From Brachionus koreanus (Eukaryota; Rotifera; Eurotatoria; Ploima; Brachionidae), in the NCBI GenBank assembly GCA_016987375.1, contig PJRA01000263.1, positions 1,491,409 to 1,555,408 on the forward strand: a stretch of 64,000 bases of DNA, in the 5' to 3' direction. The translations under genes were made by a program, and so were the position numbers. Below are positions 4,501 to 53,130 of the stretch, one piece after another. Numbering within the stretch: position 1 is the stretch's first letter; every line of letters begins with the position of its first letter. The notes under the pieces are model-generated. The model worked only from the letters and a program-made list of their open reading frames with translations, ran no database searches and was not told the DNA's origin.

Positions 4501-7500
4501 ACAAGTCAAACGACACACGGTCTTCTCTCACGACGAGCTTGTGTGCAAAGTGGCGCTTAACAAAACAAACATTGACTTGAACGTGTCCATTGCCATACAA
4601 AACGAGCTCAAAACGATGATTGACCAAGAGACCAGGGAGCGAAAGCTGCTGCTTGACAAAGGCGTTAAGAGTGCGCGCAGAGTCAACTTTGAGTTGTACT
4701 CGGACGACGAGAGAACTTGCGATTACTGCAAAACGACTTGCTTTATGTCGGCGCTGACCTGTTCGTGTCAACAGGATCGAATTGTGTGTCTGGACCACTT
4801 TGAGCATTTGTGCGCCGTGTCGACCGCCAACGGCAAAGTAGTGCAGAGCCAAGCGCACAAGCTGACCATTCTATTTCGCTATGAAATGCAAGAGCTTTGT
4901 CTCATGTACAACAAGCTTAAGCAGATGACCGACGAATACTTTGTCTGGTGCAATAAGGTCAAAAATCTGCTCGGCATAAACGACGACCCCGACTTGGAGA
5001 TAATCGAGTCGGACTCGACGTATAACAAGCCGCATTTTAAAGTATTTCTCAAATTGTATCAAGAAGCCAAAGAGAAACAATATCCGGCCAAAATTTTAAT
5101 GTTCAAAAAAATGAAAATAAACTTGCTCAAGCAGCTCGAGGACGAGCTAAATCGAGCAGTGACAATTGGAAAATTGTGCAAGAAATATTTGAATGCATTC
5201 AAAACAGGAGAAAAATCGGACTCCGATGACGAAGTCATATTTGTCAAAGAGACTAGTATCAAGTCGAACAGGCCATATTTGAACGATCTAAAGCAGCTAC
5301 TCGATGACTTGAATTCGCTCAAGTGCGACTTGGATGAGGCCGATGTGTTCCGCACTTTGGTCAGCGAGAGTGTTGAGTATGAGAACAAGATAAAAAAAAT
5401 GATAGACGAATGGAATTTGAATAAGTTGGATGAGCTGACCAAGGCTGTCGAGTATTTGGAGCGCATTGATATCGAATTTCCGACAAATTTAATGCACCAG
5501 ATTAGAACAATGCACAAACAAGCTGTTTGGTTGGACAAGGTGAAAAAAATCGAGCCTAACACAAACATTACTGTGCTGCAGAGTCTTCTTGATGAGTTTG
5601 TGTCCGAGTCGTTGATTACCAAATTTGGCGACAAAAAATGCGACGTAATACAAAAAAATTTTGTCGACTTGCAAGAATTGGTTTGTGTGACGCAAACGTG
5701 TGACGAAAAGGCCAAAAAAATGATAAATAATGCCAATAAAAGACTTGAGAATATGGAATCGCTGCTTAACGAGTGCCAGAATATTCCCATTAAAATCGAT
5801 AATGTGATCAAATTGGAAGATTTAGTTCACAAAGCTCGACTATGGAAGCAAAAAGCAAACGAACTAGTCAAAGTAAGTCTCTTTAATTGATTAATCTAAC
5901 AAAAAAAAAAGCTTCAGGCAAGAAAATTTAATGGTAAAAATTAAAAAAAAAACACTAGAAAATTTACCCATGATAAACGATTTATTCAATTTTTTTTTTA
6001 AATCTTAGCTAATAATGGAGATTAATTTGAAAAATCTCTTTTTGATAAAAGACTGATATGTTAGTTAGCATGAATGTTTAATTGTGTTCTATCACTAAAT
6101 TTAATCTATTTTTAAAATTTTCAATTTTAGACAAAATTTTGTTTAGTATTGAATAAAATAATTTTGTAAAAGAGTTTGAAAAATTAAATTGATTTTTTTC
6201 TTTTTGTTGAAAGATTTTTCTTAACATGTTTTAAAAATTTTGTGACACTAAGATGCTTGGAACTGCGTGACTATGTTCCGTTTGACCCAATCGGATAGAC
6301 TTATAATTATAATCTTTAAAGCAAAGTCAATTTTATGCTTAAATTTAAACTACCATTTTGTCAAAATCATCTCTAAAAGGTCTTTAAATATTTTTTGATT
6401 AGCTTCAAAGGCATGTTTTTTAAATAAATAAACTTTCAACGTTTAACTTTTTCTAAGTCTTCAAATATTTTATCCATATATAATTATCGACTACACTTGC
6501 TATGTTTTACTACAAATGAATATTTGTCTTGGCAACAAATTTTGGTAATTTGAAGGACGGTTGGAGAAATAAATACATCAATGCAGTCTAAATAATTATA
6601 TTATATTAATAACTTAATTCTAACTTAGTAGCTCATTAAAATTTTTTCACGCTGCAAAGAACCCATGATGTTACCAAGTTAATCTTGATAGTACTATTCT
6701 AGGTTCAGATTAGAAAATTTAAACAATAAAGAAGTGAATGTAGATAAATTCCTTTCATTAATCTTTAAATTTTTTAGCTAAGATTCTCAAAAATTTAATT
6801 TTTAAATAGTAAGATAAAAAATATCAATAAAACATATAAATTGTGGATACTAAAAAAATTTTTAATAAGTTCGATCCAAGAATTAACTTTGAGCATTAAA
6901 ATCCATTCAATTTTTGTTTCATTTAACTAAAAGAAAACAATTAAAAGTTTAATTTTTACACTAGAACGCTCGAGTGGTTTTTTAGACACATTTTTGAAAA
7001 ATTGAAACTTGAATTTTATCACATAAAAATAAAATTCTTATAAACGGCTTTTATTAGCTAAAAATCTTGATTGTAATTTTTTAGAAAATGAATAAATTTT
7101 CATAGAAAATGTTTAATTTATCTTAACACTAGAAAGCCCGGCTGATTTCTCATTAAAATTTCAAATAAAGTAATCAAGATAAATTAAACATTTTCTATGA
7201 AAATTTATTCATTTTCTAAAAAATTACAATCAAGATTTTTAGCTAATAAAAGCCGTTTATAAGAATTTTATTTTTATGTGATAAAATTCAAGTTTCAATT
7301 TTTCAAAAATGTGTCTAAAAAACCACTCGAGCGTTCTAGTCTTAATAACTTAATTTTAAATTTCTATGCGAAATCAGTCGGGCTTTCTAGTATTAAGTTC
7401 ATTACAGATTTTCACATAATAATTTAATCATTATTTTTAAAAATCTATTCACTGTACGAAACTATATTTTTATTATTATGTTTCAATAACAGTTTATAAA

Positions 7501-9663
7501 AAAAAAATAATCAATTTTATGTTTTGTTTTCTGTCTCTTAAAACTTAAAGGCCAGAGGCATTTTTCAACTTATTTTATTTGACTCGTTTCTTTACTTTTT
7601 TTCAATGATAATAAAATTATTTTGTAATAAAAATTAAATAATTATAAAATTAAATATTTATTTTTTAAATAATAAGTAACAAAAAGGGTTCAAAAGACCC
7701 CCTCAGCCTTTGAGTGTTAAAATATGATAGATTTAAGCTAAATATTCACTTTTTCATAATTTAAATTTTTTTTCAAGTCTGAGCTATGACTTGAATGATT
7801 TAAAAAAGTAAAGAAAAAAATTTTCCATTATAAATTTTGGCTTCCAACAAGCCCGTATAACAAACAATTTATTTTTTTTACTTTAAAAAATTAAAATAAA
7901 ACATTAAATTTAATATTTATTTTAAATTAAAGTCTGAGCCATACGTAAACGAATTAAAAGACTTGGTAAAAGAAAGCGATGAACTTCAGATAAAATTTGA
8001 CTCGGTTTCAATTTTGCACACTCGTCTTAATCTGTTCACCGAATGGCTTTTCAAATTAGAAACAACATTTCTTAAATCGGATTCTGCCAAGACTGTGTTG
8101 GACATATTAACACCCCGTCTCGATATCGAACACTTCAATCACAAATTACAAAATAGCCTGAAAGCATGTGCTAGCTCAAGTTCGTCACCCATTTTGAACG
8201 AGGTAGCCATGTCCAAGTACATGACAAAACGTCAGCGCGAAAAAAGCCTCACTCTCAATTTAAATTCATCAAAATCAGACGCTCAAGAGCCAACCATTGA
8301 GTCATCTCTAGATTTCTATGCCAATGAAACCAATTTAGAAAATCTCAAGGAAAAATACAAAAGTCTACAATACAAAGAAATTGAGTTCATAAAGCAGAGT
8401 CGTCGTTTGAATACTGAAAGAATTTTACTACTAAAAAATTTTCTACAAAATGTTGTACTAAACCTGTCCGAGCCGATTAACATCAAAGAAAACTCTTTGA
8501 ATAAAATAAAGTGCACTTCGTGCACTAGCTCCATGCTTAATCGAATATTTTCATCTAATCATTTTAATCAATGTAGACTTTGTCTTGGCTTGTACTGTTC
8601 CGTGTGCAATAATGTCAATTTAAAGCAGTCTAAACTTAAAATGGCCGAATCGACCAACTATTTGTGCCCTCAGTGCGACAGATCCAAACGGCCCAAACTT
8701 GACACAGTGGTTGATTTTTTGATTAAATTTGAAAAATTACAGGTCAAGTCATTTGAGTCAAATGCGCTTCAAATGTTCGTCAATCGAGCTCTAAATTGGA
8801 ATGAAAAATACGACAAGCTAATTAAAGAAATTGATGGTGCTATTCAAGAATGTGATGGCAATGAGTCGACTTGGGAGGAAAAAATAAATCCGTTGAAAAA
8901 ACAGGAGCTGCATGATTTGCACATAGACGGCCTATTGCTTGAAATAGACTCGACCAAAGTACTTCAATTGAATGATTTAATGGAAAAAATGGAATGCGGC
9001 GAACTGGCCGAATTGAGGTCTGTATGTGATAGAATAAATGAATTCAAGGACAAAATTCAGTTTGTTGAAGCGGGTCCGAGTGCCCCGTTGAATTCACAGG
9101 TTTCGTCGCCGATAGTGCCAGCTACCAGTCGATCCAAGCCTGCTAAACTTGAAAAAATCAAAATTAACAAAATAGCGCGGAACAGTGAAGGAAATGAAAC
9201 AGATAAGACAAAAATTAAAGATGCTAGGGGCAAGAAATCAAAGATAAAAGACTCGGATCCACCAAAGAGTCGCAAGAGAGAAATAAATCAAGTGTATGAC
9301 TCGGATGAGGAGCAGTGTGCGGCACTCAAGTGTCTAAAACCTATGGGAGATAACATCAAATGGGTACAGTGTGATGGCGATTGTCAAAAATGGTTTCATA
9401 TGGCATGTGTTGGTATAACAAAAATAAAGCGTAGAGATAAGTATTTGTGTCATTTGTGTACGATTACACAAGATGAGAATTCAACTAGTTCTAGTAATAC
9501 AAGTTTGAATAATGGCAAGAATGAGTCAAAATTAACTTATGAAGAATCAATGGAAAATGAAGATTTGAAAAATGACCAAGATTCTAGTTTAATAATAAGC
9601 AAAATGGAGACAGATACAACCGAGAGTGTAAATCTGAATGCTACTATTGAAATAATCGAATAG
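1589..9663 (+). CDS. KDM5: Lysine-specific histone H3K4 demethylase 5 (KDM5/JARID1/Lid)
   Basis: Four exons (1589-1810, 3126-3185, 3254-5872, 7933-9663; all phase 0, GT-AG) give 1543 aa, within the 1400-1800 aa usual for the family. KDM5 is a nuclear Fe(II)/2-oxoglutarate enzyme that removes methyl groups from H3K4. Domains in order: JmjN (about 14-74, with YGICKIVPP and DWKPPF), ARID (about 75-165), PHD1 (203-247, C4HC3), JmjC with iron ligands H390, E392 (HVE) and H478 (YHAGFNQGF), C5HC2 zinc finger (583-614), a PLU-1 helical region, a Cys-rich patch from 1161, and a C-terminal PHD (about 1429-1476, ending WFHMAC...CHLC). The start ATG begins directly before the JmjN domain. The core of exon 3 is much richer in G and C than exon 4 or the introns. 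Introns 1 and 3 hold MITEs. Family assignment is secure; only the exact 5' UTR is unknown. Confidence 0.96.
2545..2714. mobile_element. MITE-like element in KDM5 intron 1
   Basis: The ends are inverted: CACTTAAAGGATCAGT at 2545-2560 mirrors the sequence ending at 2714 with one mismatch in 16. The left side is preceded by TTAA (2541-2544), as expected for piggyBac-type insertion, but the right side reads CTAC, so the target duplication is not confirmed. An outer AGTGTTT pair (about 2536 and 2729) extends the symmetry. It has no coding capacity. Confidence 0.6.
6462..6725. repeat. Dispersed repeat R1, copy in KDM5 intron 3
   Basis: Clearly related to 19437-19660 inside CLEC16A intron 5. Both run through TTTTATCCAT, CTACAAATGAATAT/CTACACATGAATAT, a CACGCTGCAA block, then TTAATCTTGAT and GTACTATTCTA, in the same order and orientation. 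It contains no ORF. It is probably a fossil transposon or retroelement segment of unknown class. Confidence 0.65.
6959..7392. mobile_element. Nested pair of TTAA-type MITEs (outer copy)
   Basis: The outer element runs from CACTAGAACGCTCGAG at 6959 to CGGGCTTTCTAGTA at 7392, preceded by TTTA and followed by TTAA (7393-7396). It is interrupted after TTAA (7123-7126) by a second, oppositely oriented copy of the same family. Together the two copies form an inverted repeat of roughly 160 bp per arm (about 6959-7122 against 7170-7340) that could fold into a long hairpin in the KDM5 pre-mRNA. The TTAA target and CACTAGAA termini suggest mobilisation by a piggyBac-like transposase (inference). Confidence 0.8.
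7127..7341. mobile_element. Inner 215-bp TTAA MITE inserted into its own relative
   Basis: The element starts CACTAGAAAGCCCGGCTG and ends GCGTTCTAGTC. It is flanked by a perfect TTAA duplication (7123-7126 and 7342-7345). It has the same length and layout as the solo copy at 44737-44951, which fixes the unit at 215 bp. It is non-coding and its last bases are the inverse of its first. Confidence 0.85.
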
Positions 9664-10160: not shown

Positions 10161-10512
10161 NNNNNNNNNNNNNNNNNNNNNNNNNNNNNNNNNNNNNNNN
10201 NNNNNNNNNNNNNNNNNNNNNNNNNNNNNNNNNNNNNNNNNNNNNNNNNNNNNNNNNNNNNNNNNNNNNNNNNNNNNNNNNNNNNNNNNNNNNNNNNNNN
10301 NNNNNNNNNNNNNNNNNNNNNNNNNNNNNNNNNNNNNNNNNNNNNNNNNNNNNNNNNNNNNNNNNNNNNNNNNNNNNNNNNNNNNNNNNNNNNNNNNNNN
10401 NNNNNNNNNNNNNNNNNNNNNNNNNNNNNNNNNNNNNNNNNNNNNNNNNNNNNNNNNNNNNNNNNNNNNNNNNNNNNNNNNNNNNNNNNNNNNNNNNNNN
10501 NNNNNNNNNNNN
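10161..10512. other. Assembly gap (352 N)
   Basis: Unresolved bases. The short inverted words CATGGCAAGT (about 10095) and ACTTGCCATA (10513) flank the gap, which suggests that a repeat or foldback element defeated assembly here. The open frames across it are artefacts. Confidence 0.95.
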
Positions 10513-39498: not shown

Positions 39499-40515
39499 AT
39501 GAAGTATTCTTTATCAAGTCTGAATAAATTAGTCAAACTTCAGGAAACAGTTAAAAATGCTTCAGTTAAAACATTTTCAGCTCATAATTCCAAAATCCAT
39601 TCAGTTTGCTGGAATATAGATGGCCGTCGACTTGCCTCAGGCTCTACCGACAAAACAGTAGCTATTTTCACCTTCGAAAACAAAGAAAAACTTGTTAGTA
39701 TCAACCGAGCCACTTTGTTTATTAAACTTTAACTTTTTTTTTTAAAGTCAAAAGAAAGCACATTCAAAGACCATAAGGATACGGTGGATCAACTTTGTTG
39801 GCATCCAACTCATCCTGATTTACTGGTTACAGCAAGTGGTGATAAGACAGTTAGACTTTATGATTGTCGAGCAGCTAAATCAATTAAAACAATTGACACA
39901 CCTGGAGAAAATATAAATGTATGCTGGTCTCCAGATGGCAAGTGCATAGCAGTTGGTAATAAAGACGACTTAATAGCTTTTGTTGATACGCGAAGCTATA
40001 GATTCACTAGCGAAAGGCAATTTAAGTTTGAAGTAAACGAAATATCTTGGAATAAAGAAGGCGACCTTTTTTTTATTACAACAGGCCTAGGAACTATTCT
40101 CATTTTGAGCTATCCAGATTTGAATGAAGTACACAGTATTGAAGCACATCTTGGAAATTGTATATGCTTAGAGTTTGATAAAAATGGAAAATACTTTGCT
40201 ACAGGTTCTGGTGATGCATTGACATCTCTTTGGGACGTAAAAACACTCAGCTGTTTGAGAACTTTTTCCAGGCTGGAATGGCCCGTCAGAACCTTAAGTT
40301 TTAACTATGATTCTCAAATGATTGCTACAGCAAGTGAAGATCATTTTATTGATATAGGCCATGTAGAAACAGGAGAGCAGGTGGCTTGCATTAAAAGCGA
40401 TATGAGTACATTTACTATTGATTGGCATCCAAAATATAATGTTTTGGCGTTTGGTTGTGACGACAATAATAATGATCGTGATACAGGTTTTGTAAAACTT
40501 TGGTCATGTTTATAA
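39499..40515 (+). CDS. THOC3: THO complex subunit 3 (TEX1), WD40 protein of mRNA export
   Basis: Two exons (39499-39693, 39748-40515) separated by a 54-bp intron give 320 aa, typical for THOC3 (about 350 in vertebrates). THOC3 is a WD40 beta-propeller subunit of the nuclear TREX/THO complex, which couples transcription to mRNA export. Conserved family stretches: AHNSKIHSVCWNIDGRRLASGS, VDQLCWHPTHPDLLVTASGDKT, GENINVCWSPDG, AVGNKDD, FKFEVNEISWN, YFATGSGDALTSLWD, LEWPVRTLSF and TASEDHFIDI, spread over about seven blades. The ATG at 39499 is preferred because the frame upstream begins at TTG. A poly(A) signal lies at 40573-40578. Confidence 0.96.
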
Positions 40516-41352
40516 AAGAATGAAATTTTGATTTTTAAAAAATGTGAATTTTCTGAATTTAAAAAATATTATAATAAAATTTTTTCTATTTAGTAATCAT
40601 TTTTGTGATGAAAATTTCTCTTTTGAATAAAAAGTTATTAATGGTAATAAATAAGGAATGAATGATTAAGTTCTGGTTCTAGATACAATAGCCATACAAC
40701 AGAAAAACGTTAGATTTAACTTGATAAAATCAAAATTAATTAAAATTAATAATAGACGAAAGCTATGAAGATGATGAGTTAACTAAATTAGTTTATTAAT
40801 GGAAATTATTATTTTAAATTAATAAGAAATTTTCATGCAAAAAAGATCGGATTATTTTTCATAAATTTTTTTAAGGACTTAGTAGGAAATAAGCATCCGG
40901 CTCAATAAGAAAAAAAAATTAATCAAGGTTATTTTTTGTCTCTTTAATTTTATCTAACTATATTTTATTTAAATAGATTGATGGTCAAAATAAAAATTAA
41001 ACTTGGGCCATTTAAGACTGTCAGAATAATATTAAGAAATTTATACACTGTAAGATAATTTTTATTAATTTATTGAAAAATTTTTATTTTTCTTTTTTAA
41101 TTTATCACCATATCTAATTAATTTCGAATATTAATTCTACTTGCTTGATAAAATGAAAATTTTCTAAAAATAAATCTTTGAATTATTTCGAAATGTTTTG
41201 CAAAAAAAAGATTTCAACAAAGGCTTTTTTTAAGCGAAAATCAAAACTCACATTTCCTGTAGTTAAAAGAAAAATAAATTCTTTGATATTTCAAAATCTA
41301 GAGTACGCATAAAATTCACACCTTATTATTATCTGTTCTATTCTAATTAATT

Positions 41353-41372
41353 GACTGAGTATTTATACTCTT
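41353..41372 (+). promoter_or_regulatory. Candidate TATA element of nanos copy A
   Basis: A palindromic GAGTATTTATACTC about 95 bp before the ATG contains TATTTATA. It is preserved in the same place in copies B (near 48013-48026) and C (near 52751-52764). Conservation across the copies fits a core promoter, but they are recent duplicates, so this is weak evidence. Confidence 0.45.
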
Positions 41373-41460
41373 GGAAATCATGTGCAAAGAGCATCGAAAT
41401 CAATTTAAAAATTAATCATTCTAAAAAACAATTGAGCAATCTGAATAGTCAAAATAAAAA

Positions 41461-41985
41461 ATGGAAATTATCAACAAAAATCAATTGGTCTTTGGTTTGC
41501 AACAATTTGTCGATTCAATAATAAAAAGTCAAGATTCTCATGCATTTAAAAAATATGATCAAATAAGAAAAATGAGTGGATCTTGTTCAGTATCACCAAA
41601 TTCATCTTTAGACTCTTGTAAATCACCGTCAACAAATTCGATTAGTTCATCTTCACATGAAAATTCAATAATTCAAGGAAGAGTGAGACCATCAGAAATA
41701 ATAAAATTTGATTTTGAAAAATATGCTATCAAAAGTGCTCGTATTTTGGAGAGAAATCCAAGCAAACAAATTATTTGTACATTTTGCAAAACAAATGGTG
41801 AGCCAGAACACATTTACAAGTCGCATTCAATCAAAAATATTCAAGGTAGAGTAACATGTCCATTATTGAAAGAATATATATGTCCAGCTTGTGGTCAATC
41901 AGGTGAAAATGCTCACACAATTACTTATTGCAAGAAATTCAAGACTCAAAAGAGAAACACGATTTTGATGCAATCAAGAAATTAA
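41461..41985 (+). CDS. nanos: Nanos-type zinc-finger protein, copy A
   Basis: Single exon, 174 aa. Nanos is a cytoplasmic RNA-binding repressor that acts with Pumilio and the CCR4-NOT deadenylase in germ cells and stem cells. The C-terminus carries two perfect CCHC zinc knuckles: C-x2-C-x12-H-x10-C (starting CTFC) and C-x2-C-x7-H-x4-C (starting CPAC), with exactly the spacing of the family. The N-terminal 100 residues are Ser/Asn-rich and low in complexity (SCSVSPNSSLDS); no clear NOT1-interacting motif was recognised. A poly(A) signal lies at 42157-42162. The gene is tail-to-tail with GTF2H1 (stop codons 380 bp apart). Copies B and C encode the same protein. The flanks mark this as the probable original. 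Confidence 0.93.
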   Translation: MEIINKNQLVFGLQQFVDSIIKSQDSHAFKKYDQIRKMSGSCSVSPNSSLDSCKSPSTNSISSSSHENSIIQGRVRPSEIIKFDFEKYAIKSARILERNPSKQIICTFCKTNGEPEHIYKSHSIKNIQGRVTCPLLKEYICPACGQSGENAHTITYCKKFKTQKRNTILMQSRN

Positions 41986-42366
41986 TTTAATTACTTTGTT
42001 TTTTTTATTGTATTTTGACTAATTTCAAATAATAGAAAAAAAATTATTTTTTGACCATTTAAAAAATTATTCTCACTTTGCTTTTTTAAATTTCAAATTT
42101 TATAAATGTCGTGTTTATTTTATTTTTTTATCGCTTTTTCACAAATATATATTTTAAATAAAAATTAAAAACTAACTTTTATGTTTACATTTATAATAGT
42201 TTAAACCATTCAACTGTGTCGTTAACAACAAGTTGCATTTTTATTCAAATTTTAAAATGAAAAATGTAACTTTATTTTATTGATTTGTATAAATTGAAAA
42301 AAAAATATAATCTGAAATTAATTAAAAGTCATGATCGTAATTTAGATATGACAAAATGATTTTTAT

Positions 42367-45300
42367 TTACACGGTTCCTTGTTTGCTTTTCCAATTATTA
42401 TATTTCATTAGCGCTATTTTAAACATGTTTTCCAAATGACCGGTTACCTACAAATTCAAAATTTATATAAAAAAAAAAAATTTGTAGTTTTTGGCTTTCT
42501 TATAAAAATAATGACTGAAAATGATATTTAACTGATTGAAACTTTAAATTTTTTCTTTAAATCTTAATTATAAGATATAAAGTGTATTTATACTATCAAG
42601 AAGAGTTGGTCAAAAGTCAAAGTTAATTCTGTTCTCTAAATTTCATATTCATAATTTTATTATTAATTTAGGAAGCTTAGCTCAATCAATTAATATTATG
42701 GTTTAATATTTATTTAAACTTACGTTCCAGGAAAAATTTTCTTTTAAAAGTTGATCTTTTAGAACCATTATTTTTTGTTGGTAAAACGTTTTCAAAGTGT
42801 CTCTAGCCAATTTTAATTTCAATTCTTGCTCCGAATTTTTCGGAGGAAACATACAATGATAGGTCTTGAGCATTTCGCATGATGAAACATATATAGACTT
42901 TATTTCTTCTTGATAGTGCTTCGGTACTTCATCTCTTAAATTCTGTACATTGTTTGTCTGCATTAGTTGACTTCCTGGAGACAAATCGACCAAAATGCTT
43001 ATTGCCAATGAAGGATTAGACACTTTTTGGATATCAATGCTCCATTCTTGAAATTGTTGCAATGTTGTTTGACATAAAGATTTTTTATCTTTATTTTTAA
43101 GCATCTTTCCAGTTTGAGACTCTTTTTCGACAGTTTTTGGTGCATAAAAGTATCTGTCAATGTGTTTAAGATTTAAAGCCGCACCTCTTAATGTTCCAAA
43201 CTCCTCTTTTTCTAAATCTTTTATCTCGTCGTCAAGCAGACGAATCTTATTACTTCCACTACTATTCTTTGACATCTTGTTACTATCTTCTTTAATCGAA
43301 TTCTCTTCCATTGAGTTTAGCACTCTCATCGAATAATAATTATATCTTTTAATTAGATTTTGTTTAGAAAGATTTGATGCTTTGGAGGTCGTGAAGTCAG
43401 TCAAGCCGAATCCCTAGACAAAATTCTATTATTTTTCGTTTTTTTTTCTTTAAAATACCAAACACAATATCCAAATTTTGTTCATTTTGGTAATAAAAAA
43501 TTCAGAGTTTGATTACAAAATCTGTTCAAGAGCCTTGAGTAAGTCAAGCGTTGAAAGGGATTTGGGTATTTACTAACAAAATGATTTAAAATGGACTACT
43601 CAAGTCAAAAATTCTACAGCTAAAGCAAATAAAATTTTGGGCTTAATTAAGAAAGCATTTAAGTATCCTTGTAGCGAGGCTATCAAATTATTGTATTGTT
43701 CAATGATTAGACCATACCTTGAATATGCTGTCAGTGCTTGCTGTCCTTATACAGAAAAAGACATAAATGCATAAATGAAGAGCAACAAAGTTGATTCCAG
43801 AAATGCGTAATTTGTACTAGATCTACTAATAAGATAAATTGATGATGTTTTAGCTTAGATTTGAAGTTATAATAAATAATTGAAGTTATGCTTTTTCATT
43901 CAAATATTGAAAAAAAAATTTATTTTTATAATTTATTTAACCTTTGAACCGAACTTTTTTGAAATCAAACCCAAGATAAAAGCTAGTCTATTGATCGTAT
44001 GAAAATTAGATTAATCTTTAAATTTTGTTTTTACTAGAAATTAAATCATATAGCGATCAGTTGAATAAAACTTTAAATTTTAAAATTAAAATTAAACTAA
44101 TTTTTAAGCTTTGAGCAGTGTAATGATACGTTTCATGTTTTTGAAATGCGAATTAGTGTCAGTATTAGGCAAAACATTTCATCTTTAAACATGTTATTGG
44201 TATAGCTTATACCTTGTCTTAAACAGAATTTCCAACATATGATTTAAGCACAAAAACGTTAAAAGCGATAGACGTAAAAAAAATCTTCTAAGAAATTCAA
44301 ATGATCCTCTAAATACAAATGCTTTTGTTTTATGTTTAAAAACGAGACCTGCAACCACATCTTTAGAGTCTACCGCAATACCTAGTGTATTAGACAAAAA
44401 AAATGTGGAAAACCAAATCTAAGTAATATTCAATTTTCAAAACATGGTAGACCTAAAAAATTAAATTTTTTTTTCTACTTAGAAAAAATAGAAAAGCTAC
44501 TTTTTGCATTTTTTCTTACTCTACTATAAACAAATAATTTAGCTACTCAGTAAAATGTAAGCCAAATTTAAAACAATTTTTTTAAGATATAATTTTTTAT
44601 TAAAATTTTTCCTACTTAATAAAAAATTTTATTTATTTTTTCATTTGTCGGATGCTTACTGAATTTTTTTATAGAAAACACAACACTTACTTCCTCAATC
44701 GAATAGTTGATGATAATTTTACAAAGAAACTATTTACACTAGAAAGCCCGGCTGATTTCTCATCATAATTTCAAATAAAGTTATCAAGATAAATTAAACA
44801 TTTTCTTTGAAGATTTATTCATTTTCTAAAAAATTACAATCAAGATTTTTAGATAATAAAAACCGTTTTTTAAAATTTTATTTATATGTGGTAAAAATCA
44901 AGTTTCAATTTTTCAAAAAGGGGTCTAAAAAACCCATCAGGCGTTCTAGTGTTGATCAAATCAGAGAAATTTATTAAATTATTGCATACATTAATGATTA
45001 AAATGTTACGTTAAGTGAAAAATGGTAACTCATAAAATCACGTTATACACTTGAATATTCTTCTAATAAAAAAAAATAACTTAAATACTTAGAAATTGAA
45101 GGAAGTTTATAAGTCGAGTGAAAAAGAATAGAAGATATTTCAATTTTGAATTTTGGCTCAATTTTTTAGATTCGTACTTAGCGAAGAATTAATAAATAAA
45201 AAGAATTAAAATAAATTTATAAAAATAAAAAATTACAAATAAAATATTTTTACGAAATTATTTGAAATTTTTTTTTATTTTAAACCTCAAAAATATATTG

Positions 45301-46398
45301 ATATGGACAAAATATCTTGTGAAAATATTAGATAAAAATTGAAAATAATCTTAAAACAATCAAAAATATGAATTTTGTGTTTTTCTTTAATTTTAAATAA
45401 CTTACATCATCACTTGAGAGAACTTTTTGACTATCGATTATGTCCACTGGTTCTGTCAGAATTTGTTGTGCCCTTGATTTCAATTCTTCATCAAGCTTGA
45501 GAGCACACTCTTTGAATATATCATCTGCAGCCAAGTTTATCTGGTCTTTGCGGAAGTAAAAACTCTGAAAAAATTTTGTCCAAAAATCTTGCTCGGACAT
45601 TCGCGATGGTACATTTTGATTATATTTTATTTTCACTGACGGATATGTTTTTAAAATAGATTCTTTGTCATCATAGGATAAATTATATACCAGACCATTG
45701 GTACCGTCCGATTTTGGACAAATGTTAGCCATAAAACCTTGAGCAACACCGGTTTTCTGAGATTTAGAAGTTGATTTATAATCTTCCATCTAGAACAACA
45801 TTTTTTTAAAAGCAATTTATTAAATCTTAATTTACATTAACAAAATTTTTCCAAAAATCCTCTGCTGATAATATTTGCCCAACAACCAAGTCGTTATACA
45901 ATTGATAAATTTGAGGATTTTCAATCAAAATTCTGTTAAAAACAAAATAACAAATTTATAAAAATAAAAATGGCAAAAATAAACTTTTTTTTCTTTTCCA
46001 ATTCTGCACTAATTTTCTGGCCAAACTTGGGCAGCAATTGACTCAATTCTTCCTTTACTTTGTCCCTGTCTCTAAGCTGAGCTTCTGGTCCACCCGGATT
46101 GGTGAAATGAAATGTAGTCGAGGAGTCATCATGAAGAACCACTTGAAGCTGAACTTTGGCCTTGCCTTCCGAAGAAATCTTTTGAGCTTTTAAAAGCTAA
46201 TGATAAAATTGCATTGCCAAAAGATGTTTAATTACTTTTTATATCAACATAGTTATGGCTGATGGATGTTGCAGTTTTTTCCCTGCCTTTAGATATCCAT
46301 GAAATTCTCTCACTCATTACATACAGAGTTCCGTCCATTTTTTTACATCTCACATTTTCTATTTGGTGAATTATCTCTTCTTTGCTATTACCAGACAT
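42367..46398 (-). CDS. GTF2H1: General transcription and repair factor TFIIH subunit 1 (p62)
   Basis: Six exons on the minus strand (46398-46236, 46186-45985, 45932-45842, 45789-45406, 43413-42724, 42447-42367) give 536 aa (human 548). p62 is a core TFIIH subunit in nuclear transcription initiation and nucleotide-excision repair. The N-terminal PH domain (about 1-105) includes [30 protein letters not shown] and [13 protein letters not shown] segments. BSD1 ends [10 protein letters not shown] (about 143-152), BSD2 has [13 protein letters not shown] (about 216-228), and [14 protein letters not shown] and LSPGSQLMQ mark the C-terminal half. The last exon encodes [20 protein letters not shown]. 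The AATAAA at 42362-42367 overlaps the stop codon, so the 3' UTR must be minimal. Intron 4 (2 kb) holds a LINE relic and a MITE. Confidence 0.95.
43510..43790 (+). mobile_element. CR1-like LINE relic in GTF2H1 intron 4
   Basis: One nearly continuous frame reads [54 protein letters not shown] and YTEKDI, the CR1-type polymerase thumb order. An internal stop and missing ends make it a fragment. It is antisense to GTF2H1. Confidence 0.8.
44737..44951. mobile_element. Solo 215-bp TTAA-type MITE
   Basis: Starts CACTAGAAAGCCCGGCTGAT and ends CAGGCGTTCTAGTG. Same family, length and orientation of ends as 7127-7341, with scattered differences inside. Flanking tetranucleotides are TTTA and TTGA, so the original TTAA duplication has decayed or was imperfect. 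Confidence 0.8.
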
Positions 46399-47025
46399 GT
46401 TAAAAGCAGCTGAAAAGTTTTTTTTTTGTAAAATAAATTAAACTAATTTCAATTTTTATGCTCAAATTTTTTTTAAGGCATATATATATATATATAAATT
46501 ATATAAATAATAAATGTTATGAAATTAAATCTGATCATATTTTAGAATTATGAGTTAATAGAATAAAATTTTAATTAAATGATATTATGATACAATAGGT
46601 CAATCAAATACATATTTTACGGTAATTTTCAAAAACCTAAAGTAATTTGAAATTTTTTTTATTTAGTTTAAGTTATTATTTGTAAGGTTTATTTTGCTTT
46701 TCTAATGAATAATTTAAAAATTTTAATGAAAATAAATTAATTTATTTGTTTTTATTTTAATTGTTTTTGACATGGAAAAGTTGAGTATTCTTAATAATAT
46801 ATAATTAAGTTAAAGTTTATATTCTTAAAATTTGAAATTTATCTAAGTAGCTTTTTTAAGTCGATTAAGGATAAAAAAAAGTTTTTTTATTATTTATCTG
46901 AAAAAAATAGACTTTCGAAAAAAAGATATCAAGAATAGATTTTAAGTTCAAAATATTGTTTTTTGACATTATCATCGTTAAACCCCGCTCTTACAAACTA
47001 AGTCCTTTCTTACTAGGCAATTTTC
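46399..47025. other. Intergenic, upstream of GTF2H1
   Basis: AT-rich with a TA microsatellite near 46482-46495. No gene seen. GTF2H1 promoter expected at the left edge. Confidence 0.4.
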
Positions 47026-47173
47026 TATCTATAATTTCTAAATTTTTGAAATTTAATTATTTTATTTTATTTATTTTATATCAAACCGAATTAATAAAAA
47101 TAAAAATTTAGCACATTTACTTTTTATTTTCGAGTAAAATATGAATAGATAAATTCTGCTTGCTTGATAAAAT
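47026..47173 (-). repeat. Left arm of an inverted repeat flanking nanos copy B
   Basis: The reverse complement of this stretch closely matches 48663-48813 (ATTTTATCAAGCAAGCA, ATTCATATTTTACTCGAAAA, GTAAATGTG, ATTAATTCGGTT, AAATTATAGAT). The arms enclose nanos unit B. Confidence 0.75.
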
Positions 47174-47208
47174 GTTTGATAAATATAATTTAAAACGTAC
47201 TAAAAAAT

Positions 47209-48612
47209 TAGTTTTTAATTTTTATTTAAAATATATATTTGTGAAAAAGCGATAAAAAAATAAAATAAACACGACATTTATAAAATTTGAAATTTAAAAA
47301 AGCAAAGTGAGAATAATTTTTTAAATGGTCAAAAAATAATTTTTTTTCTATTATTTGAAATTAGTCAAAATACAATAAAAAAAACAAAGTAATTAAATTA
47401 ATTTCTTGATTGCATCAAAATCGTGTTTCTCTTTTGAGTCTTGAATTTCTTGCAATAAGTAATTGTGTGAGCATTTTCACCTGATTGACCACAAGCTGGA
47501 CATATATATTCTTTCAATAATGGACATGTTACTCTACCTTGAATATTTTTGATTGAATGTGACTTGTAAATGTGTTCTGGCTCACCATTTGTTTTGCAAA
47601 ATGTACAAATAATTTGTTTGCTTGGATTTCTCTCCAAAATACGAGCACTTTTGATAGCATATTTTTCAAAATCAAATTTTATTATTTCTGATGGTCTCAC
47701 TCTTCCTTGAATTATTGAATTTTCATGTGAAGATGAACTAATCGAATTTGTTGACGGTGATTTACAAGAGTCTAAAGATGAATTTGGTGATACTGAACAA
47801 GATCCACTCATTTTTCTTATTTGATCATATTTTTTAAATGCATGAGAATCTTGACTTTTTATTATTGAATCGACAAATTGTTGCAAACCAAAGACCAATT
47901 GATTTTTGTTGATAATTTCCATTTTTTATTTTGACTATTCAGATTGCTCAATTGTTTTTTAGAATGATTAATTTTTAAATTGATTTCGATGCTCTTTGCA
48001 CATGATTTCCAAGAGTATAAATACTCAGTCAATTAATTAGAATAGAACAGATAATAATAAGGTGTGAATTTTATGCGTACTCTAGATTTTGAAATATCAA
48101 AGAATTTATTTTTCTTTTAACTACAGGAAATGTGAGTTTTGATTTTCGCTTAAAAAAAGCCTTTGTTGAAATCTTTTTTTTGCAAAACATTTCGAAATAA
48201 TTCAAAGATTTATTTTTAGAAAATTTTCATTTTATCAAGCAAGTAGAATTAATATTCGAAATTAATTAGATATGGTGATAAATTAAAAAAGAAAAATAAA
48301 AATTTTTCAATAAATTAATAAAAATTATCTTACAGTGTATAAATTTCTTAATATTATTCTGACAGTCTTAAATGGCCCAAGTTTAATTTTTATTTTGACC
48401 ATCAATCTATTTAAATAAAATATAGTTAGATAAAATTAAAGAGACAAAAAATAACCTTGATTAATTTTTTTTTCTTATTGAGCCGGATGCTTATTTCCTA
48501 CTAAGTCCTTAAAAAAATTTATGGAAAATAATCCTATCTCTTTTTCATGAAAATTTCTTATTAATTTAAAATAATAATTTCCATTAATTAATAAACTAAT
48601 TTAGTTAACTAA
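47209..48612 (-). repeat. Segmental duplication unit B
   Basis: Inverted copy of 40773-42177, including about 690 bp of 5' flank and about 190 bp of 3' flank of nanos. The distal 5' flank shows several substitutions against A, while the coding part looks identical. Confidence 0.85.
47398..47922 (-). CDS. nanos: Nanos-type zinc-finger protein, copy B
   Basis: A 174-codon intact single-exon gene. Protein identical to copy A, and by eye the nucleotides are identical too. Both CCHC knuckles are present with family spacing (C-x2-C-x12-H-x10-C, C-x2-C-x7-H-x4-C). It carries its own proximal promoter region with the GAGTATAAATACTC palindrome and the AATAAA signal downstream, so it could be expressed independently. 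It sits between two arms of a roughly 150-bp inverted repeat. It could still be a silent duplicate, but there is no disabling mutation. Confidence 0.9.
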   Translation of the reverse strand: MEIINKNQLVFGLQQFVDSIIKSQDSHAFKKYDQIRKMSGSCSVSPNSSLDSCKSPSTNSISSSSHENSIIQGRVRPSEIIKFDFEKYAIKSARILERNPSKQIICTFCKTNGEPEHIYKSHSIKNIQGRVTCPLLKEYICPACGQSGENAHTITYCKKFKTQKRNTILMQSRN

Positions 48613-48813
48613 TTTTTTTTGCAAAACATTTCGAAATAATTCAAAGATTTATTTTTAAAAAATTAACATTTTATCAAGCAAGCATTTATCTATTCATATT
48701 TTACTCGAAAATAAAAAGTAAATGTGTTAAATTTTTATCTTTATTAATTCGGTTGGATATACAAATAAAATAATATAAAATAATTAAATTAAAAAAATTT
48801 AGAAATTATAGAT
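48613..48813 (+). repeat. Nanos 5'-flank fragment and right inverted-repeat arm
   Basis: 48613-48720 repeats the segment found upstream of nanos copy C (52911-53015), starting with TTTTTTTTGCAAAACATTTC and running through ATTCATATTTTACTC. 48663-48813 is also the right arm that mirrors 47026-47173. A further diverged piece (about 48865-48945, with AGTAGAATTAATCTATTCAT and AGATATGGTGAT) follows. These are leftovers of additional rearranged nanos flanks. Confidence 0.65.
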
Positions 48814-48949
48814 GAAAAAAAACAAGCTTGTTTCGTAAAAATTTAAAAAGAATTCTTATAAATAAATTATTTCATTTTAACGAGTAAGTAGAATTAATCT
48901 ATTCATATTTTATTCGAAAAATATTAGATATGGTGATATAACTAATATA

Positions 48950-49901
48950 AATTTAATATTTATCTAAAAGTTTTTCACATAATATACTGTTAGTTAGCCA
49001 ATAATTGTATTTATTTCATTTGTATCACTAGCCCAAGTTTCTCTAGTACATTCGCTTACATTGACATCGTCATATTAAAAAAATACTCTTCATTTTAATC
49101 TGCTTTTTTCTAAGACCCTTCTGAAAAAAAAAAACGAGGATTATTAAATAGATGTCATTAGGCTGTCAAAATTTAAGTTAAAAAAAAATAACAAAATTAA
49201 AAAATCTGATTTTAATCATTAAAGTGGCTTTTAAACTCATTTTATTGGAATCTTTCCTTCTTCCTAATTGTTTTCTTATTAAACCATGTTAGAAATAAGC
49301 TAATTGACCACCAACTATAGCAAAGTGGTGGACCTTATTATTAAATAAAGCTTATTCCAAATTTTTAATAAATTAAAGATTTGGGAGAAGAAAAAAAAAT
49401 ATTGCGATAAACTCTGGTAATGAGTTGGAAGTGTCACTTTTAAAATGAGTCAAAAGCATTTATATTAAGAGGACTATTTGAGTTTTTTTGAAGTGCTAGT
49501 TAAACTTAAAATCTTCTCCTTTTTTCTGCTTTTTTCAATTCTTAAATCATTTTCTTGCTGTTCTGTAAAGTGTGTTGATCAACAGATAACATGTTTTAAT
49601 CAAAGTCAATTTCGATAATTAAGATACGAAATTTCCTCTTTTTTTTGATAATTTAAAGATTAAATAAGCCCGGAATTTAGACTTTAATTTAAAACTAATA
49701 GTCGTTTTCAAAATAGATTATATCAATATGGTCTAATATTCTTCTTGAAAGATATCCATTTGGAATCAATTCGAAAATTTCACAAATAAGAGTTGTATCA
49801 AGAGTTATCTAAATTTCTAATTTTTGACTTAAAATTCGTGAACCACGTATTTTGAGACTCTAAATACCGTAAACCCTTGCGATATCATGCATGGGATAAC
49901 T
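48950..49901. other. Intergenic
   Basis: AT-rich with no gene or clear repeat family recognised on either strand. Confidence 0.35.
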
Positions 49902-50497
49902 TTTGATTCTTAGGTTTTAGTGCACGCATAAGCGACCTTCCTTCCGTTGTTAAAATCGACCTCCTTGGGATGCATGCAAAAAAATGCAGATTTTATGTTT
50001 TGAGGTGGCGTTAAAATTCAAAAAACTTTAAATTAATGCNNNNNNNNNNNNNNNNNNNNNNNNNNNNNNNNNNNNNNNNNNNNNNNNNNNNNNNNNNNNN
50101 NNNNNNNNNNNNNNNNNNNNNNNNNNNNNNNNNNNNNNNNNNNNNNNNNNNNNNNNNNNNNNNNNNNNNNNNNNNNNNNNNNNNNNNNNNNNNNNNNNNN
50201 NNNNNNNNNNNNNNNNNNNNNNNNNNNNNNNNNNNNNNNNNNNNNNNNNNNNNNNNNNNNNNNNNNNNNNNNNNNNNNNNNNNNNNNNNNNNNNNNNNNN
50301 NNNNNNNNNNNNNNNNNNNNNNTTGCCGGGTCAAGTCCGCATTTTCGGTTTTTGACTCGGCATTAATTTAAAGTTTTTTGAATTTTAACGCCACCTCAAA
50401 ACATAAAATCTGCATTTTTATGCATGCATCCCAAGGAGGTCGATTTTAACAACGGAAGGAAGGTCGCTTATGCGTGCACTAAAACCTAAGAATCAAA
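49902..50497. mobile_element. Foldback element with 138-bp inverted arms around a sequence gap
   Basis: 49902-50039 and 50360-50497 are near-perfect reverse complements (138 bp each). They begin outside with TTTGATTCTTAGGTTTTAG and include GTGGCGTTAAAATTCAAAAA. The centre is 283 N (50040-50322) plus 37 known bases that start TTGCCGGGTCAAGTCCGC. A diverged single-arm relative lies at 58957-59285. The hairpin probably caused the gap. No transposase is visible, though the gap could hide a short insert. Confidence 0.8.
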
Positions 50498-51676
50498 GGA
50501 TTCTATAAAACAACGAATACTTAATAAAGTTGTAATTAGTGTTTTTTGCTGTTTATTAGTCAAAAAAAAATAATCCAAAGGCAAATTTATATTAATTTTT
50601 ATTAAAATTATCAGTATAAAGTTGTTAAATATATCTGGACTTTTTTCCAAATTCTCATCTACATACCAAACTGACTCACAGTTTAAAAAATTTATATTTT
50701 CCTTGGCACAAACAGTAAAATATGTTTCTCATCTACATATCTAATATAAAATTGAATAAAATCTTTCCCTGATTTAGGAACTCTGTTCTTTTCTTAAATA
50801 ACAAGTTATTTTAAAGTTTTGGCTTCTTTTCAAACATCAGTTTCTTTTGTTCTTTTCCTATCTATCTTTTGTTTAAAGCTGCGAATTCGAACCAGAGTAG
50901 AAGAATCCTTAATATTTAAGTTGCAGAGTTGTTTAAAATTTCAAAATTAAAAGCTTAGTCCTTTAAAATTAAATTTCAGTTCCAGGCTTAAAATTCCGGC
51001 ATTAGTAACGCTTGCACAAAAATTCCTATCGATTCTAGCTTCTTCAGAATCAGTTTAAAGGATTTATTCTAAATCTGGTCATATCAAACGACCATATAGA
51101 ACAGGATTAACTAACGATAACCTAGAAAATAGACTTTATTGGTTAGTAATATGTATTTAATCAAGAAATTGAAAAAATAAATTTTTGATAACAAAGGAGA
51201 ATCTTAATTTATAAAAATTTGAGTAAAACTTTTGCCCTTGGACTTGGCCTTGGCTAAACACTTGTGACTTTTAAACAACTCTGCTAAGTTACCAAAAAAA
51301 TCTTAAATAATTGTGGTTGGGTTCTCATTAGTAATTACTAAACTTGCTTTTATCTCAAAACATATTTTCTAGTCGTAATTTCATAATTTAAAGTTTCATC
51401 ATCATGACAATCAAAGTAAATTTTATCATTATTATTTTCACCTGTAAGGACTTACACTAATTTAGAAAACATAAAGAAAAATTCAAATATATTAAAGTTT
51501 TTCATTCTTCCCTTTACATATTTAAAGTCATATTTGGCTTTTCTTGTTGTTTTAAAAACAAAAATGGAAGGTGTTGTGTCAAAAATAGACTCTAAATGCT
51601 GGGAATTGTTGGAATAATTTAATAAATGTGACATTCTACAATTGATTAATCTGTAAAATATATTTTAAACAATAAA
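50498..51676. other. Intergenic
   Basis: No gene is supportable. One 60-codon minus frame (51452-51634) has no recognisable domain. No repeat family was matched. Confidence 0.35.
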
Positions 51677-51753
51677 GGTCATTTGGAAAACATGTATAAA
51701 AAATGGCGCTAATGAAATATAATAATTGGAAAAGCAAATAAGGAACCGTGTAA
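51677..51753 (+). pseudogene. Broken duplicate of the last GTF2H1 exon
   Basis: Corresponds to the end of GTF2H1 exon 6 (42367-42441) carried along with nanos unit C. Relative to the working exon it has 2 extra bases in the AAAATAGCG region, causing a frameshift, and a CAA to TAA change near the end. The exon's acceptor and first codons are missing. It is non-functional and serves as a marker of the duplication's origin. Confidence 0.85.
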
Positions 51754-52134
51754 ATAAAAACCATTTTGTCATATCTAAATTATGATCATGACTTTTAATT
51801 AATTTCAGATTATATTTTTTTTTCAATTTATACAAATCAATAAAATAAAGTTACATTTTTCATTTTAAAATTTGAATAAAAATGCAACTTGTTGTTAACG
51901 ACACAGTTGAATGGTTTAAACTATTATAAATGTAAACATAAAAGTTAGTTTTTAATTTTTATTTAAAATATATATTTGTGAAAAAGCGATAAAAAAATAA
52001 AATAAACACGACATTTATAAAATTTGAAATTTAAAAAAGCAAAGTGAGAATAATTTTTTAAATGGTCAAAAAATAATTTTTTTTCTATTATTTGAAATTA
52101 GTCAAAATACAATAAAAAAAACAAAGTAATTAAA

Positions 52135-52659
52135 TTAATTTCTTGATTGCATCAAAATCGTGTTTCTCTTTTGAGTCTTGAATTTCTTGCAATAAGTAAT
52201 TGTGTGAGCATTTTCACCTGATTGACCACAAGCTGGACATATATATTCTTTCAATAATGGACATGTTACTCTACCTTGAATATTTTTGATTGAATGTGAC
52301 TTGTAAATGTGTTCTGGCTCACCATTTGTTTTGCAAAATGTACAAATAATTTGTTTGCTTGGATTTCTCTCCAAAATACGAGCACTTTTGATAGCATATT
52401 TTTCAAAATCAAATTTTATTATTTCTGATGGTCTCACTCTTCCTTGAATTATTGAATTTTCATGTGAAGATGAACTAATCGAATTTGTTGACGGTGATTT
52501 ACAAGAGTCTAAAGATGAATTTGGTGATACTGAACAAGATCCACTCATTTTTCTTATTTGATCATATTTTTTAAATGCATGAGAATCTTGACTTTTTATT
52601 ATTGAATCGACAAATTGTTGCAAACCAAAGACCAATTGATTTTTGTTAATAATTTCCAT
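52135..52659 (-). CDS. nanos: Nanos-type zinc-finger protein, copy C
   Basis: Intact 174-codon gene with the same protein as A and B. By eye there is a single synonymous difference (codon 4, ATC to ATT) and a few changes just before the ATG. Both CCHC knuckles and the proximal promoter palindrome are kept. Its 3' flank contains the frameshifted GTF2H1 exon fragment, which has accumulated several changes while the nanos frame has almost none. It may be functional or kept identical by gene conversion. Confidence 0.9.
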   Translation of the reverse strand: MEIINKNQLVFGLQQFVDSIIKSQDSHAFKKYDQIRKMSGSCSVSPNSSLDSCKSPSTNSISSSSHENSIIQGRVRPSEIIKFDFEKYAIKSARILERNPSKQIICTFCKTNGEPEHIYKSHSIKNIQGRVTCPLLKEYICPACGQSGENAHTITYCKKFKTQKRNTILMQSRN

Positions 52660-53009
52660 TTTTTAACTTGATTATTCAGATTGCTCAATTGTTTTTTAGA
52701 ATGATTAATTTTTAAATTGATTTCGATGCTCTTTGCACATGATTTCCAAGAGTATAAATACTCAGTCAATTAATTAGAATAGAACAGATAATAATAAGGT
52801 GTGAATTTTATGCGTACTCTAGATTTTGAAATATCAAAGAATTTATTTTTCTTTTAACTACAGGAAATGTGAGTTTTGATTTTCGCTTAAAAAAAGCCTT
52901 TGTTGAAATCTTTTTTTTGCAAAACATTTCGAAATAATTCAAAGATTTATTTTTAAAAAATTAACATTTTATCAAGCAAGCATTTATCTATTCATATTTT
53001 ACTCAAAAA

Positions 53010-53130
53010 TAAAAAGTTTTAATAATTAAATTGTGTCTTTAACAACAAGTTCTTTATTCAATTTTTAAATTTAGAATTTAATAAAATCTGAAATCAATTA
53101 TTGATATCACAATCATAATTGAATAATTGT
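53010..53130 (+). repeat. Diverged nanos 3'-flank fragment
   Basis: TTGTGTCTTTAACAACAAGTT followed by TTTATTCAATTTTTAAAT and ATAAAATCTGAAATCAATTA resembles 42214-42340 of unit A. It is on the plus strand, opposite to the adjacent unit C, so it represents an older, deleted copy. Confidence 0.5.

Follow-up and report, generated by a model that had tools for sequence, protein, structure and literature searches.

The window analysed here, 64,000 nucleotides of Brachionus koreanus DNA (C1:1491409-1555408, in an assembly of 83.26 Mb and 92 contigs), carries three nanos genes, and two further copies are found beyond its edges. In window positions, the five copies are the following:

41461..41985, + strand: copy A, from the list of open reading frames, an intact single-exon coding sequence for 174 amino acids with CCHC-CCHC zinc fingers
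47398..47922, - strand: copy B, from the same list, an intact coding sequence for the same protein as A
52135..52659, - strand: copy C, from the same list, an intact coding sequence for the same protein as A
77275-77799, - strand, outside the window: copy D, intact, differing from A in the last residue alone (N to F)
-18368..-17844, + strand, outside the window: copy E, intact and diverged

The initial annotation had described A, B and C as a 12-kb cluster of three genes for one 174-residue Nanos protein. The three reading frames are indeed intact and their products identical, and the copies are real. The extent has to be revised, to five copies over 96 kb. The nanos cluster is real, intact and unusually uniform.

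The copy A protein contains a zf-nanos domain (Pfam, E=2.8e-22, residues 106-159), matched over its full length (1-54/54) with 79.2 bits against a cut-off of 27, and it aligns with the three of three PDB sequences returned, all named nanos. The fingers of Nanos proteins are spaced C-x2-C-x12-H-x10-C and C-x2-C-x7-H-x4-C. This spacing is found when counted on the eight Cys/His residues of copy A (C106, C109, H122, C133, C141, C144, H152 and C157), which are invariant across 17 aligned proteins. An N-terminal CNOT1-interacting motif is given as a feature of Nanos in the available part of PMC4003280; in the alignment, the Brachionus-type proteins show an LV-x-GLQQFV-like N-terminus. Genome-wide, a protein search gave eight nanos matches (8/8 candidates scored), and the Pfam zf-nanos profile retrieved the same eight genes. 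Five of these (E, A, B, C and D) lie within one 96-kb stretch of contig C1. The three others are diverged genes at C7:1248984 (L006), C1:2814152 (L007) and C9:713197 (L008); in L007 the zinc fingers are embedded in a very long Asn/Ser-rich reading frame (888-codon open frame). No nanos pseudogene was found in a 134-kb stretch around the cluster, where a tblastn search with a limit of E<=1 recovered the five copies plus a single match at chance level (E=0.56). Since all five copies are intact, all of them probably make Nanos. The E protein is 88-89% identical to that of A over aligned residues (85% by gapped tblastn).

Across A-D, the coding region has five variable bases in all:

base 12: C in A and B, T in C and D (Ile4, ATC/ATT, synonymous)
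base 363: G in A and D, A in B and C (Ser121, TCG/TCA, synonymous)
base 516: A in A, B and C, G in D
bases 520 and 521: A in A, B and C, T in D

Thus A and B, previously read as identical in coding sequence, differ at one base (363). The single synonymous base attributed to C holds with respect to B (base 12); with respect to A there are two (12 and 363). The differences among A, B and C are all synonymous. Copy E shares T at base 12 with C and D, and G at base 363 with A and D. Synonymous divergence is 0.01-0.03 among A-D versus 0.22-0.23 to E, and dN/dS between E and A is about 0.27 (0.060/0.219).

The identity extends beyond the coding sequences, into blocks of DNA and flanking elements placed as follows:

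40780..42180, + strand: A side of the A/B block, reaching from about -681 to about +719 around the ATG and ending 18 bp beyond the AATAAA poly(A) signal
47203..48603, - strand: B side of the A/B block
41140-42441: A side of the A/C block
51677..52980, - strand: C side of the A/C block, reaching by BLAST from about -321 to about +980 and near-identical as far as about +950
41231..41460, + strand: proximal promoter and 5′ leader of A (five-copy alignment, -230..-1), nearly complete in A-D and reduced in E to about 156 bp with 81% identity
48613..48719, - strand: a detached extra nanos 5′ flank of C type upstream of B (it matches the C flank over 107 bp at 99% and the flanks of A and B over 70 bp at 96%)
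47021..47176, + strand: inverted counterpart of 48665-48818 at 92% identity; these two arms of about 155 bp each enclose B

By self-comparison, A, B and C sit in repeats, inverted or direct, of 1408 bp at 99.3% (A/B), 1304 bp at 98.9% (A/C) and 1041 bp at 99.2% (B/C). Segmental duplications are defined by a length of at least 1 kb and an identity of at least 90%. The three pairs are segmental duplications by this rule, as had been proposed, and D (match length 754 bp) and E (459-482 bp) fall below the length. At thresholds of 90% identity and 150 bp, the 134-kb stretch has 11 self-matches, of which 8 link nanos units, 1 links the arms of B and 2 belong to an interspersed repeat. A pairwise comparison of coding, untranslated and flanking DNA, as the initial annotation had recommended, gives a mosaic of near-identical cores and different outer flanks. 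The near-identical core of D runs from about -196 to +514, with a diverged yet alignable stretch directly upstream, and E retains its promoter stretch and coding region only. The DNA 3′ of A's stop codon has high-identity matches in C and B alone; otherwise there is one weak match (102 bp, 74%) on contig C42.

Within the promoter, a TATA-like element, TTAATTGANTGAGTATTTATACTC, lies at -114 to -91 in copy A. In genome-wide pattern searches allowing at most 2 mismatches, TTAATTGANTGAGTATTTATACTC was found at 5/5 clustered copies and at one site with 2 mismatches on C25, whereas another conserved element occurred at these five copies only. The two elements were also considered as signs of a genome-wide germline regulon, an idea not supported by their confinement to the five copies, bar the one 2-mismatch site. 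A retrocopy origin was discarded: the promoter is carried along with the genes (about 680 bp upstream in A/B), so the copies are not processed retrocopies. Downstream, A, B and C have a common 3′UTR with AATAAA 172 bp past the stop codon. Within 200 bp of the stop, AATAAA occurs at 26 and 180 bp in D and at 151 bp in E. Control through the 3′UTR may differ between the copies.

The arms around B consist largely of nanos 5′ flank. All 5 matches (self included) of a 377-bp query covering the detached flank and its arm lie inside the nanos cluster; in the other arm, four short stretches on other contigs match the portion 47002-47080 (80-88% over 49-79 bp). This arrangement suggests that an additional nanos copy, or a palindrome, formerly occupied the place of the arms. 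Unrelated genes adjoin or separate the copies:

39784..40515, + strand: THOC3 gene adjoining A (Pfam THOC3 beta-propeller), single copy
42703..46400, - strand: interval separating A from B, which holds a BSD-domain gene (Pfam BSD, E=1.4e-13 at 45328-45789) and two interspersed repeats

The one strong match of THOC3 scores 572.5 bits and the next genomic match 43.5 bits. The BSD-domain gene presumably encodes the TFIIH subunit p62/GTF2H1, and its extent is likewise presumed; the reading frame 42703-43404 gave no Pfam match. Among the 40 of 658 candidates scored in a DNA search, the 3.7 kb between A and B are represented elsewhere in the genome by their two interspersed repeats alone.

How the differences between the copies are distributed bears on the origin of this uniformity. 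In contrasts picked post hoc, after viewing the data, D and C show 3 differences in -196..+514 (711 bp) versus 5 in the 29 bp directly upstream (Fisher p=3.4e-6); A and B show 1 in -601..+714 (1316 bp) versus 4, together with one indel, in the 78 bp at the outer end, -680..-602 (p=4.4e-5); and A and C show four within a patch at -13..+11 (25 bp) versus one in the other 1147 bp of -296..+875 (p=8e-7), where -296 to -14 is free of differences and the single one lies between +12 and +875. Block-end sites were trimmed where the alignment fades (A/B: -685, +715, +720, +721; A/C: -325, -324, -322 and all from +954; C/D: -232, -229, -227, +519, +520, with +515 used in the run test only). With the same trimmed sites, the longest difference-free run, compared with uniform placement, gave modest p values of 0.018 (A/B), 0.039 (A/C), 0.0027 (B/C) and 0.0089 (C/D). 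Copy D becomes abruptly divergent at its stop codon, where 3/6 bases of 516-521 differ, and the 3′UTRs beyond barely align. Sharp-edged tracts lying within more diverged sequence are thus seen in the D core and in the A/B and A/C contrasts, all of them chosen post hoc. The groupings of the copies also conflict. The patch at -13..+11 unites A with B and C with D, and base 363 unites A with D and B with C, all four combinations being present; the second grouping is a single site with one transition, which repeated mutation could explain.

The flanks of D and E were compared with those of A against composition-matched random segments. For the 5′ flank of D, 16/4000 random segments were as good by global score, and 122 and 46 of 3000 by local score in the two directions. 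Its 3′ flank is marginal (101/4000 global; 37 and 27 of 3000 local). The flanks of E show no convincing homology to A (global, 1051/4000 for 5′ and 392/4000 for 3′; local, 87 and 213 of 3000 for 3′). An earlier test with unmatched random segments (150 each) flattered the D 3′ flank (A/D 0/150), and the matched tests are relied on instead. The same unmatched test gave 0/150 for A/B and B/C far downstream (+740..+1000). Because its 5′ flank past the core still aligns with that of A, D resembles an old paralogue whose core has been refreshed.

From these patterns we infer that local duplication was followed by ectopic (interlocus) gene conversion among the cluster copies, and we hold this to be the probable history. 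The nanos family would have spread over 96 kb among unrelated genes through small DNA-level duplications in both orientations. Ectopic conversion would then homogenise its members, such that promoter and coding sequence become near-identical in A-D and the outer flanks, as well as the 3′UTR in D and E, stay different. The evidence comes from one assembly and from the cluster DNA of one species. Against conversion, the residual flank homology of D is weak, so that a short duplication ending at the stop codon would also fit; break-repair mutations could likewise cluster at block edges.

The initial annotation had left the choice between recent duplication, conversion between inverted copies and selection for dosage. 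Recent serial segmental duplication alone would have produced very young copies A-D of unequal lengths, with no later exchange. The low divergence within the shared blocks (dS 0.01-0.03) agrees with it, and A could have given rise to both B, with its long 5′ side, and C, with its long 3′ side. The end of the D tract at the stop codon could also be a duplication breakpoint, and the weak flank homology of D goes in the same direction. However, young duplicates would be expected to differ evenly along their length, and the clustering of the differences therefore favours conversion. Nor does this scheme account well for the discordance between the patch and base 363, or for diverged homology just outside the near-identical core in the D 5′ flank. 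Duplication alone thus fits poorly and we consider it rather unlikely; the D boundaries, the clustered differences and the incompatible groupings favour conversion atop local duplication. Selection alone, purifying or for dosage, might be thought to keep the copies identical, since five of five are intact, dN/dS between E and A is about 0.27 and the promoter is partly conserved even in E. But identity includes synonymous sites, the 5′ leader and, in A-C, the 3′UTR, and E, by contrast, stands at dS 0.22. Copy number may be a target of selection; identity itself is not created by it. As a sufficient cause it is very improbable.

It may also be asked whether the extra copies are false, through misassembly or unmerged haplotypes. 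The genome is AT-rich, the repeats measure 1.0-1.4 kb and N runs occur in the region, all of which would invite such an error. However, flanks and block boundaries differ copy by copy, both neighbours tested are single copy and the host contig measures 6.29 Mb, for which reasons an artefact is highly improbable; the several nanos proteins of B. plicatilis and B. calyciflorus also speak against it. Transport of the nanos units by a mobile element, the inverted repeats flanking B being its terminal repeats, would explain why B is enclosed by inverted arms of about 155 bp (92%) and why the outer part of one arm (47002-47080) recurs at four short places on other contigs. Yet the 377-bp query on the other arm is confined to the nanos cluster (5/5), no comparable bracket was seen around A, C or D, and block ends vary among copies. 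Despite the four short matches, this origin is disfavoured and would be extremely improbable.

Related species were compared at the protein level. The search with copy A matched 16 proteins, the nearest named ones being Brachionus nanos-like proteins. Copy A is 69-71% identical to four B. plicatilis 'nanos-like' proteins, which are 72-83% identical to each other, and 53-56% identical to three B. calyciflorus nanos proteins; protein P0003 is intermediate (67%). The comparison with related species that had been called for therefore gives several diverged nanos copies in B. plicatilis (4 proteins) and B. calyciflorus (3 proteins); it used representatives (P0001 for 5 sequences, P0010 for 4), which do not show near-identity elsewhere in the genus. 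In a tree of 38 proteins, A, D and E form a clade with support 100/99; a second clade, with 93/93 (81/86 in a tree of 14 of the 38), comprises the B. plicatilis four. The B. calyciflorus proteins form no supported clade in the 38-protein tree and have 59/69 in the 14-protein tree. The diverged nanos genes on C7, C9 and C1:2.81 Mb fall outside the clade of Brachionus and cluster proteins, two of them on long branches that make their placement unsure. Trees constrained to pair A or E with any one of the B. plicatilis four were rejected in 8/8 cases (AU test, p<=4.3e-5; these pairs were chosen once the first tree had been viewed, and the smallest p values are not literal). Copies within a species are closer than copies across species in the tree and in the AU tests, which is the pattern of concerted evolution. 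Since one-to-one orthology with B. plicatilis is rejected, amplification or homogenisation is, as judged from these proteins, lineage-specific; the trees, built from protein data only, fit independent amplification equally well as homogenised older copies.

A broader scheme of 'one protein, several 3′UTRs' can be envisaged, in which conversion would equalise promoter and Nanos in A-D and end at the stop codon of D, leaving 3′UTR control of a germline regulator as the main difference, and in which amplification would be recurrent and independent in Brachionus lineages, whose reproduction alternates between asexual and sexual. As a whole, this scheme is speculative and we regard it as doubtful.

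Processes of this kind, duplication followed by gene conversion, are known. What is notable is the gene acted on, the D tract ending at a stop codon and the multiple nanos genes in other Brachionus. In Caenorhabditis, the inverted hsp16 and hsp70 paralogues are described as multigene families with interlocus gene conversion (available part of PMC3966223). The likeness lies in neighbouring paralogues in both orientations and in similar tract sizes, 12-2958 bp being the largest range in Table 1 of that source and about 0.7-1.3 kb being found here. Unlike these families, the present one encodes a germline RNA regulator and has unrelated genes interspersed over 96 kb; promoter and coding sequence are common to the cluster copies, and the D and E 3′UTRs differ. 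Regarding rotifers, the available part of Smith et al. 2010 (PMC2938724) reports Bpnos RNA of B. plicatilis in the ovary, germ cells and late embryo, and Nanos is a translational repressor of germ cells with Pumilio as partner (ibid., in part). Bpnos has the same two CCHC zinc fingers (Pfam PF05741, zf-nanos). One nanos gene is described in that part of the source, whereas here five are clustered, four of them nearly identical, in addition to three diverged ones.

No report of such a cluster was found among the listed titles and abstract starts of papers on nanos in rotifers or Brachionus, on its duplication and on its gene conversion. A duplication of nanos is known in the pea aphid. The available part of PMC9329388 does not mention it. 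The statement that one to three nanos paralogues are usual proved loose, four being given for the silkworm (PMC8662646) and for a grouper (PMC5412271) in the accessible parts of these sources. Grouper, shark (PMC5932020, in part) and silkworm resemble B. koreanus in having several nanos genes per genome; for the grouper and shark paralogues differing expression is stressed, whereas the product of four copies in the present cluster is essentially a single protein.

Nanos is a core germ-cell gene, and monogonont rotifers reproduce with and without sex (PMC2938724, in part). In such an animal, a homogenised nanos cluster would be a natural system for testing selection on germline dosage or 3′UTR control. 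More practically, in situ probes, knock-down and qPCR in rotifers that assume one nanos gene may target several loci together.

Some other features of the region may be mentioned. The interspersed repeats between A and B, at 43478-43814 and 44732-44953, have many genome copies at 82-96% identity, and, judged by eye, the former resembles a reverse transcriptase end. Between B and C, at 49902-50497, a 138-bp inverted repeat (99%) surrounds a 283-bp N run, and further N runs occur at 10161-10512 and 73676-74229. An imperfect palindrome of about 712 bp (75%) is found at 6794-7505, parts of which match 44733-44956 at 90%.
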